64,000 nucleotides of DNA from a candidate division TA06 bacterium (lineage in GTDB: Bacteria > Edwardsbacteria > AC1 > EtOH8): the NCBI GenBank assembly GCA_016235665.1, contig JACRJI010000008.1, forward strand, positions 310,001 to 374,000, in the 5' to 3' direction. The stretch's first letter is position 1; each line of letters starts with the position of its first letter. The notes beneath the pieces were generated by a model. That model saw nothing but the letters and a program-made list of their open reading frames with translations, searched no databases and had not been told where the DNA came from. This document shows positions 11,123 through 51,641 of the stretch, one piece after another. A program made the position numbers and the translations under genes.

Positions 11123-11175
11123 ATTTATATCACCGTTACTCGTTAATTGTTATTCGTTAATCGTTGCCTGTGGTC

Positions 11176-11217
11176 TATTCAGTATTCAGTATTCAGTATT
11201 CAGTATTCAGTATTCGG
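11176..11217. repeat. Tandem heptamer repeat (TATTCAG)n
   Basis: Six 7-base units lie in tandem: five perfect TATTCAG copies and one TATTCGG, between cheC and cheA. Just before them is an imperfect TCGTTAAT repeat. Related CAGTATTCAGTATTC strings occur near 22240 and a degenerate version near 37785. The unit does not encode a peptide here. Confidence 0.85.
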
Positions 11218-11222
11218 TGATC

Positions 11223-21494: not shown

Positions 21495-22224
21495 TTTCGA
21501 TCGTTCCCCCTTTAATGAAGTCCTGGACGAATTTTAGTTTGGAACCCTTTAGTTCGTTGGAGGTGCCGGAGAAAAGTATCCCGCCGTCCTTGATCACCTC
21601 AAAGCGGTCGGCCACTTTAAAGGCGTTGGCTATTTCGTGGGTCACCACAATGGAGCCCACCTTGTGTTCATCTTTCAGCTTATTGATCAGCTCATTGATC
21701 TTGCGGGAGGTCAGCGGATCCAGACCGGTGGTGGGTTCGTCGTAGAACATATAGCGGGGATCAAGCACAATAGCCCGGGCCAGGGCCACCCTCTTCTTCA
21801 TGCCTCCGGAAAGTTCCGAGGGCATGGTCTGTTCGGTTCCGGATAGTTCCACAAAACTGAGGGCTTGGGCCACTTTTTCGGAGATCTCACCTTCAGATAG
21901 CTTCAAATGTTCCCGTAAGGGGTAGGCCACATTCTCCTTGACGTTCATGGAATCAAACAACGCCGCCCCCTGGAATAGCATCCCTATCTTTTTCCTCAGG
22001 GGCAGCATCTGCTCCTCGGTGTAACCGGTGGTATCCTCGCCGTCAATGATTATCCGTCCGTGTTCCTGTTTAAGCAGCCGGAGGATTATCTTCAGGGTCA
22101 CGCTCTTGCCGCATCCGGAGCGGCCCAGTATCACCAGGGTTTCGCCCTGGTCTATCCTGAGGTTGACCCCTTTTAAGACCGGCTTGCCTTCAAAGGATTT
22201 ATGGATGTCGTAAAGTTCGATCAT
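21481..22224 (-). CDS. mlaF: MlaF-type ABC transporter ATPase
   Basis: The 247-residue ATPase has Walker A GRSGCGKS, the Q-loop region GMLFQGAALFDSMNV, the signature SELSGGMKKRVALARAI, Walker B YMFYDEPTTGLDP, and the H-loop at VVTHE. GMLFQGAALFDSM and the SGGMKKR signature are typical of the MlaF/Ttg2A group. It powers lipid movement by the MlaE permease. It lies between mlaE and mlaD with the overlap noted there. All catalytic motifs are intact. Confidence 0.95.
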   Translation of the reverse strand: MIELYDIHKSFEGKPVLKGVNLRIDQGETLVILGRSGCGKSVTLKIILRLLKQEHGRIIIDGEDTTGYTEEQMLPLRKKIGMLFQGAALFDSMNVKENVAYPLREHLKLSEGEISEKVAQALSFVELSGTEQTMPSELSGGMKKRVALARAIVLDPRYMFYDEPTTGLDPLTSRKINELINKLKDEHKVGSIVVTHEIANAFKVADRFEVIKDGGILFSGTSNELKGSKLKFVQDFIKGGTIENANQ

Positions 22225-22319
22225 TTATTTCATTCTGTTCAGTATTCAGTATTCTCTATCCAGTATTCCCCAGTGGACATTGGATAGTGGCTACCGGATA
22301 GTGGTTAGTCATGTCAGGT

Positions 22320-37768: not shown

Positions 37769-37827
37769 TTTCTCTCCTGTATTCTGTATACGGTATACTG
37801 TATCCAGTATCCGGTAATTGTTTCCTA

Positions 37828-38293: not shown

Positions 38294-38404
38294 CCGCCAA
38301 GGCACTAAGACACCAAACTAACCAAAATAGGAAATAGAAAATTGGAAATTGTTTTGTGTCTTCTGTGCACATTCTATAGGCTCAGTGCACGTTTTTTGTG
38401 GCAA
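38294..38404 (-). repeat. Dispersed 110-base repeat, copy A
   Basis: The reverse strand reads TGCCACAAAAAACGTGCACT, then GAGCC, and ends near TTGGTGTCTTAGTGCCTTGG. It matches the plus-strand sequence at 48391-48499 over nearly its whole length with scattered differences. It fills the gap between the NuoA-like and NuoB-like genes. No transposase or clear ORF is present. Confidence 0.8.
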
Positions 38405-38409
38405 AAAAT

Positions 38410-48385: not shown

Positions 48386-48390
48386 TTTCT

Positions 48391-48499
48391 TGCCACAAAG
48401 AACGTGCACTGAGCCTGTCGAATGTGCACAAAGACACAAAACCATTTCCGATTTCCCATTTCCAATTTGGTCATTTTGGTGCCTTGGTGTCTTGGTGGC
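48391..48499 (+). repeat. Dispersed 110-base repeat, copy B
   Basis: The plus strand reads TGCCACAAAGAACGTGCACT to about CTTGGTGGC and matches the reverse strand of 38294-38404 over most of its length. It contains GTGCAC twice, about 14 bases apart. It fills the gap just upstream of waaF. The short string GGAAATGGGAAAT found in it also occurs inside the 48505-49494 gene. Confidence 0.8.
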
Positions 48500-50591: not shown

Positions 50592-51641
50592 TTACAGAAG
50601 ATGACTTAAAACTTTTTCCACTTCAATGCCCCCTAAAGAACACTTGGTGCTTGGTTGGCAGTTCCTACAGAATTCATCCTCCGGCACCAACTGAACATGC
50701 CCCTCCCCCAGCGGCCTCCAGCGTTCCGGGCGGCTGGCCGGCGCCGGGCAGAACAGCCCCACCGTTTTGGCCCCCGCCGCCGCGGCCAGGTGCAGGGTGC
50801 CGGTGCTGCTGCCCGCCACCTGCCGGCAATTTGCCAAAATTGCAGCCAGCAGCCGCAATGTCAGCTGTGGCCCGGCAATGGGCACATTGGTATCGCCTTT
50901 TACTTTATTCAGTATCTCTTCCTCCCCCGGCCCGCCCAGTATCAGCACTTCCTGTTTGGCTTTCACCAATTTCCGGACCAGTCCGCCCCATCTCTCCGGC
51001 GGCCAGTTGGCCGAGGAACCCCGGTTGGCGGGGAGAATGGCGATGGGGTTGTTGACATTGATGGACAAAAGGACATTTTTGGCTTCAGCAATTTCCTTGT
51101 CGTTCAAAAATATCTTCGGTGGCTCGATCTCTTCTGGGAGTTCAAACAAACTGCGGGCCACGGAAAAGTTGTATTCGGTCTCGTGAATGACCCGGCCGTC
51201 GTTTCGATACGCTCCGCCGTTGGCTGAGTTGCCGCAGGCAGTATCGAAGCCAGGCGGAGCACTCAACTTCCGGCCCCTGTGCGAATGCTTGAAGCCCGTC
51301 AAAACATAATAGGGCCTGAAGCCCAGTCCGGCCTTCTGTTTAACACCGGCAAACAGCGCCGCCCAGGCCAAAAGCTTTGAAGGATGCAGCATCAACAGGA
51401 CATCGTAACGTCCCCGGCGCAATGTTTTGATCAAAGGCCAAAGGCCGTTTGTCCAGATGATCACCTCGTCCAAAAAGGGCTGGTCAAAGAACAGCTCCGC
51501 CAAAGGCTTGGTCACCATAAAAGTGATGTGCGCCCCCGGCCTGGCCGCCTTAAGCGCTTTTAAAAGAGGCACGGCGCTGAGGGCATCGCCCAGCCGGTCC
51601 TGGCGGACCACTAATATTTTCTGTGGTTCAGACAACTTCAA
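50592..51641 (-). CDS. LPS heptosyltransferase (GT9), third copy, with in-frame repeat insert
   Basis: The 349-residue protein has ILVVRQDRLGDALSAVPLLK, LPANRGSSANWPPERWGGLV, GSSTGTLHLAAAAGAKTVGL and a CRNCQPSTKC end. Between HSHRGRKLS and HETEYNFSV, residues about 127-151 (PPGFDTACGNSANGGAYRND and flanks) are not typical of the family. They are encoded by a palindromic repeat (51203-51260) that keeps the frame. The gene overlaps the membrane protein stop upstream by 14 bases. It probably adds a core heptose. Confidence 0.87.
   Translation of the reverse strand: MKLSEPQKILVVRQDRLGDALSAVPLLKALKAARPGAHITFMVTKPLAELFFDQPFLDEVIIWTNGLWPLIKTLRRGRYDVLLMLHPSKLLAWAALFAGVKQKAGLGFRPYYVLTGFKHSHRGRKLSAPPGFDTACGNSANGGAYRNDGRVIHETEYNFSVARSLFELPEEIEPPKIFLNDKEIAEAKNVLLSINVNNPIAILPANRGSSANWPPERWGGLVRKLVKAKQEVLILGGPGEEEILNKVKGDTNVPIAGPQLTLRLLAAILANCRQVAGSSTGTLHLAAAAGAKTVGLFCPAPASRPERWRPLGEGHVQLVPEDEFCRNCQPSTKCSLGGIEVEKVLSHLL
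51203..51260. repeat. Palindromic repeat inserted in frame in a heptosyltransferase gene
   Basis: Two inverted repeats are present. TTCGATAC (51203-51210) pairs with GTATCGAA (51241-51248), and GCTCCGCC (51211-51218) pairs with GGCGGAGC (51253-51260). TGGCTGAGTTGCCGCAGGCA lies between them. Such compound palindromes normally lie between genes. Here the sequence is read as about 24 residues without breaking the frame. Confidence 0.75.

Follow-up and report, generated by a model that had tools for sequence, protein, structure and literature searches.

The window, the whole 64,000-nt stretch of DNA analyzed here, carries on its minus strand a gene for a GT9 heptosyltransferase, recognized by both its PF01075 domain and its GT9 fold, whose reading frame stays open across a palindromic insert (Table 1). 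AlphaFold, run on nine orthologues, predicted a GT9 fold with a pTM of 0.85 (best PDB matches, 3tov, 1psw, and 2h1f). The pLDDT fell below 50 at insert residues 123-144, between helices 110-115 and 154-163, a dip that also reflects the thin, gapped alignment there, and the model fits a disordered surface loop within an otherwise confident fold. The insert adds a net 69 nt, or 23 amino acids, to the length found in insert-free orthologues. An earlier note, made from the sequence alone, had described about 24 residues encoded here without a break in the frame, and both the residue count and the open frame were borne out.

Table 1. Positions of the heptosyltransferase gene and of the parts of its palindromic insert in the window
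Feature	Position	Strand	Evidence
GT9 heptosyltransferase gene, 349 aa, carrying the insert	50592..51641	minus	ORF; Pfam PF01075, E=6e-20; predicted fold matches GT9 structures 3tov, 1psw, 2gt1
Whole composite palindrome (82 nt); minus-strand translation, GRKLSAPPGFDTACGNSANGGAYRNDG	51194..51275		Orthologue comparison and coordinates
Inverted-repeat part A, TTCGATAC	51203..51210		
Outer module, core half TCGATAC	51204..51210	+	Core common to the modules of the 18-module alignment
Outer module, stem2 left arm (inverted-repeat part B), GCTCCGCC	51211..51218	+	Pairs with 51253-51260
Inner module, GGCTTCGATAC-TGCC-TGC-GGCA-ACTCAGCC	51222..51251	minus, opposite to outer	Covariance model, E=6.0e-8 (training sequence); compensatory change in G001
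Inverted-repeat part A', GTATCGAA	51241..51248		
Outer module, stem2 right arm (inverted-repeat part B'), GGCGGAGC	51253..51260	+	Pairs with 51211-51218
Outer module, core half ACTC	51261..51264	+	Core common to the modules of the 18-module alignment
Outer module, stem1 right arm, AACTTCCGGCC	51265..51275	+	Imperfect pairing with GGCCGTCGTT at 51194-51203; model hit G000:C8:361194-361274, E=5e-4; compensatory GTCCG/CGGAC in G005

Two nested inverted repeats had been described at 51203-51260. Both are present there, but their arms follow the order A-B-A'-B' and are interleaved rather than nested as written, so that the two pairs cannot share one simple hairpin. A better reading is two modules of the same kind, each contributing halves to these repeats, with the inner one within the loop of an outer module that spans the whole composite. 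Both modules were recovered by a covariance model searched against the 2.7-Mb genome (inner, E=6e-8; outer, E=5e-4); these values are rough, and the inner score is favored by construction, as the inner module was among the 18 training sequences. A comparison with the curated RNA families of Rfam gave no match at E<=1. Elsewhere in the window, positions 38325-38408 and 48386-48468 hold inverted copies of about 83 nt that are 87-91% complementary, with the palindrome GTGCAC..CTGAGCCTGTCGAA..GTGCAC, and a 7-nt unit like TATTCAG forms short arrays at 11160-11222, 22220-22268, and 37778-37812.

The modules share the layout stem1-TCGATAC-stem2-loop-stem2'-(T)ACTC-stem1', in which two variable stems are joined by a fixed asymmetric internal loop. 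In an alignment of 18 modules from this genome (G000) and its relatives, stem covariation was 0.55, against 0.25 when shuffled (0 of 500) and at most 0.16 with the partners slid. Modules had been found by matching TTCGATAC..ACTCA, so part of the invariance of the core reflects this selection. The stem covariation does not, although copies with recognizable stems were chosen. The T-A pair adjoining the core is replaced by C-G (CTCGATAC/ACTCG) in some g4 copies and throughout genera g2 and g3, the kind of change expected of paired bases. Pattern and covariance-model searches, on which all copy counts given here rest, found modules recurring between genes in related genomes and in G000 itself, where the earlier note had proposed looking for further copies. 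The copy number in G000 is low, with nine model hits, compared with up to 372 copies in another phylum. As palindromes of 20-40 nt that are multicopy and mainly intergenic, the modules have the features by which REPs are recognized. The pattern GGTTTCGATAC..ACTCAACC occurred, among the matches listed, in Actinomycetota, Chloroflexota, Spirochaetota, Acidobacteria, and others, and in 12 genomes of other phyla, picked because they had a match, TTTCGATAC..ACTCAA was present 19-372 times each, against zero for the reversed control. In many of the copies from other phyla, GTAG adjoins stem2 (GAGTAG-stem, or CTACTC on the other strand), in an internal rather than a terminal position. At one locus of a related genome (L225, G002:C176:18852-19673), about eight modules stand mostly in a row at a spacing of about 75 nt with the shared spacer GATGGCTTATTGTTTTGGTGTTGG, forming an array of the same repeat.

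In their size, their hairpin form, and their clean insertions without duplication, the modules resemble classical REPs, and they could be moved by a Y1/HUH REP-associated transposase (RAYT), possibly acting from a distance. The GTAG next to the stem in many copies from other phyla would agree with such an enzyme, as would the presence of a module about 1 kb from three Chloroflexota Y1 loci. We nevertheless consider RAYT mobilization unlikely: no module was detected within about 1.5 kb of any of the 26 Y1_Tnp genes of the bacterial family (4 in G000 and 22 in its relatives), and other palindromes flank two of the four in G000; a Y1_Tnp match is absent from 7 of the 12 module-carrying genomes of other phyla, including that of Treponema bryantii NK4A124, with 372 copies; and GTAG is missing from both modules of the window. 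Lacking a neighborhood link in the family and a Y1_Tnp match in those seven genomes, RAYT was rejected as the mover, and this analysis found no candidate for the mobilizing enzyme. The Y1_Tnp genes with flanking palindromes in G000 (L012, G000:C13:50685, and L013, G000:C8:156956; palindromes tagcccatacattaatgtatgggcta; aacccaggcattaatgcctgggtt) are perhaps true RAYT/REP pairs.

Direct comparison of a filled and an empty site is available between G000:C14 and the orthologous intergenic region of a sister species, G002:C55, whose flanks align closely. G000:C14 has gained two 23-nt units, CTTGGGCTGAGTTCATCGAAGCC and CTTGTGCTGAGTGTATCGAAGCA, each inserted cleanly into an older module, and because this filled/empty pair exhibits clean insertions, the comparison of the two sequences supports the view that such units move. 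A target site duplication, as expected of MITEs, was not found at these two insertions beyond 1 nt of alignment ambiguity. A small unit also interrupts the core between TCGAT and AC at seven sites in four genomes; since the search pattern fixed this position, the count demonstrates recurrence, not preference. A scanner requiring both stems, applied to loci of the bacterial family, identified 60 distinct modules. They formed 16 nested pairs, of which 14 had opposite orientations; the other two, with the same orientation, lie in loci with further insertions. The reversed-sequence control yielded three modules and no nested pair. By eye, the outer and middle modules point in the same direction in the heptosyltransferase inserts of G005 and G007 and at G000:C14/G002:C55. 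We infer that modules prefer their own kind as a target, although neither this preference nor the nesting figures can be read as a genome-wide rate, because the loci were chosen for containing a module. No convincing nesting was found among 156 modules in 120 module-bearing loci of other phyla, where the one apparent case consisted of side-by-side units.

Alternatively, nesting may have arisen by replication template-switching or hairpin extension rather than by insertion of mobile units. Such a process would give the alternating orientation of successive modules as well as loop inversion between arms, and the compensatory changes make the palindromes look corrected. It appears unlikely, in that the clean 23-nt gains inside the G000:C14 modules resemble units dispersed elsewhere, the interruption of the core recurs at its seven pattern-selected sites, and the same types of module are nested in a different order at different loci.

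At the heptosyltransferase locus itself, the upstream membrane-protein gene is the same across the orthologues compared. The insert is absent from the syntenic orthologues of G008 and G009 and of the more distant G003 and G006, which have a short loop, in agreement with the expectation that GT9 relatives would lack it; it is present, always in frame, in G000, G001, G002, G005, and G007, which fall in two genera and have 57-99 nt more than G008 and G009. Within the palindrome, the G001 insert differs from that of the window by two mutually compensating base changes (TGCC/GGCA to TTCC/GGAA), one of which changes an amino acid. The G002 insert has lost its left outer arm. In G005 and G007 the tip contains a third module and the middle module is in the opposite orientation, an arrangement that looks like an inversion of the loop content between the two arms. 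G000, G001, and G005 have the arms GCTCCGCC/GGCGGAGC and the tip stem TGCC/GGCA in common; these are decayed in G007, and G002 is without the left arm. The intergenic copies read carry other arms, mostly GCCCCGCC. Because these arms and the tip stem are shared by both genera and differ from those of the intergenic copies, the heptosyltransferase inserts of the two genera look homologous. Inside the two genera, the gene tree is compatible both with one gain followed by loss in G008 and G009 and with more than one gain. The loop of G008 and G009 has as many residues as that of the outgroup, and any loss would therefore need to be near-exact. At the empty site of G008 (L021), the insert-free loop forms a small palindrome of its own, ATCCCT CAAAACGAT AGGGAT, which may be a scar or chance.

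These comparisons also bear on whether the gene has kept the hairpin under selection, for a structure in RNA or DNA or for a functional loop of the peptide, rather than tolerating it as a mobile insert. Five orthologues from two genera retain it, compensatory changes keep its stems, and the G000 and G001 inserts agree at 73 of 78 positions, against 157 of 180 and 147 of 180 in the flanks. That identity is not clearly above that of the flanks, and extra constraint on the insert was rejected. Selection on the hairpin is further made improbable by the four syntenic orthologues that do without it, by a peptide that is not conserved (its content inverted in G005 and G007 and an arm lost in G002), by the amino acid replaced in the G001 compensatory change, and by the occurrence of the same modules between genes. 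A chance palindrome in coding DNA, for which one could cite a folding energy that is only moderately unusual (z=-2.16, with 11 of 200 shuffles equally stable), is refuted by the presence and absence of the insert among orthologues and by dozens of module relatives.

Across about 49 sites, the heptosyltransferase orthologues provide the only mid-gene copies within a recognized protein. Modules also overlap nine other ORFs. Six of these have no Pfam match; in the three with known domains, the module precedes the domain, close to the start and probably ahead of the true start codon. Mid-gene entry is thus rare, with one homologous insertion shared by orthologues, and because only the heptosyltransferase copies are mid-gene, this insertion has the look of a single, tolerated accident rather than of a Rickettsia-like habit. 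The earlier note had proposed a mobile palindrome that enters coding regions at loops tolerated by the protein. The mobile units and the position of the insert in a loop agree with this proposal, but entry is not habitual. Neither an insert conserved in distant homologues nor a genome without another copy, the two outcomes named as refuting it, was found. Rickettsia palindromic elements (RPEs) had been offered as the precedent, but an identity with them did not follow: although the frame is open in all five insert-carrying orthologues, as read at the sequence level, the modules are rarely intragenic and do not enter many unrelated genes, a comparison made by features and not by sequence.

The usual descriptions of REPs and RPEs are of single units or of pairs lying next to each other. 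REPs inside genes, RPEs included, some encoding 20-30 residues, have been documented (PMC3733652; review, PMC10969869). The modules share with RPEs a palindromic repeat read in frame at a tolerated place within a gene; compared by description only, RPEs are longer and enter many genes. Like the GTAG/CGTC-tagged REP superfamilies (PMC3733652), they are short, mainly intergenic palindromes with compensatory stem variation, of which some are intragenic and, in those superfamilies, read in frame as 20-30 residues, but they differ in the TCGATAC/ACTC internal loop between two stems, in module-in-module nesting, and in having no adjacent transposase gene in this family. REPINs and BIMEs with their RAYTs (PMC3116915; PMC2817692) are likewise nonautonomous hairpin repeats, often in opposite-oriented pairs, but those pairs lie side by side, whereas the modules here are nested in a loop, and a RAYT neighborhood link was looked for and not found. 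MITEs (review, PMC10969869) are also small nonautonomous mobile DNA able to give in-frame fusions, unlike the modules in that the two clean insertions here have no target duplication and no parent IS was identified. No description of the TCGATAC/ACTC motif or of nested REPs was found in the open literature, outside which most subscription journals lie; the best-ranked matches to the motif as DNA letters were unrelated by title, and searches by topic, on nested palindromes or on REPs of these phyla, returned nothing relevant. Judged against that literature, in-frame REPs inside genes are already known from RPEs and GTAG/CGTC REPs, and nesting and remodeling at the same site are new here.

Taken together, the insert is in our view a composite of two REP-like mobile palindromes in a GT9 gene, later remodeled in place, a reading to which we assign a probability of about 0.85. 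A module-in-module composite would have entered the heptosyltransferase gene before the two carrying genera diverged, or would have been exchanged between them, and would have landed in a surface loop with a net length that is a multiple of three and a frame without stops. The protein presumably survived with about 23 extra residues because of that length and stop-free frame and because the site is a surface loop; the enzyme appears to tolerate the insert. Remodeling in place may then have left the loop content opposite in the two genera, added a third module in one genus, allowed arms to decay, and resulted in two species without the insert, with nesting arising as existing modules take up new units with no duplication of the target. 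More tentatively, and at somewhat less than even odds, the modules may represent a widespread class of mobile palindromes with a TCGATAC/ACTC internal loop that is not moved by Y1/RAYT enzymes and that, in one bacterial family, targets itself, building nested hairpins whose contents can flip and yet stay readable either way within a gene.

The presence of hundreds of module copies in a genome without Y1 genes turns the identity of the mobilizing enzyme into a testable question. With stacked repeats and filled and empty states available in related species, the insertion rule becomes readable from sequence. The heptosyltransferase, with its several insertion states, both orientations of the content, and open frames throughout, offers a natural series for studying how a protein absorbs mobile DNA.
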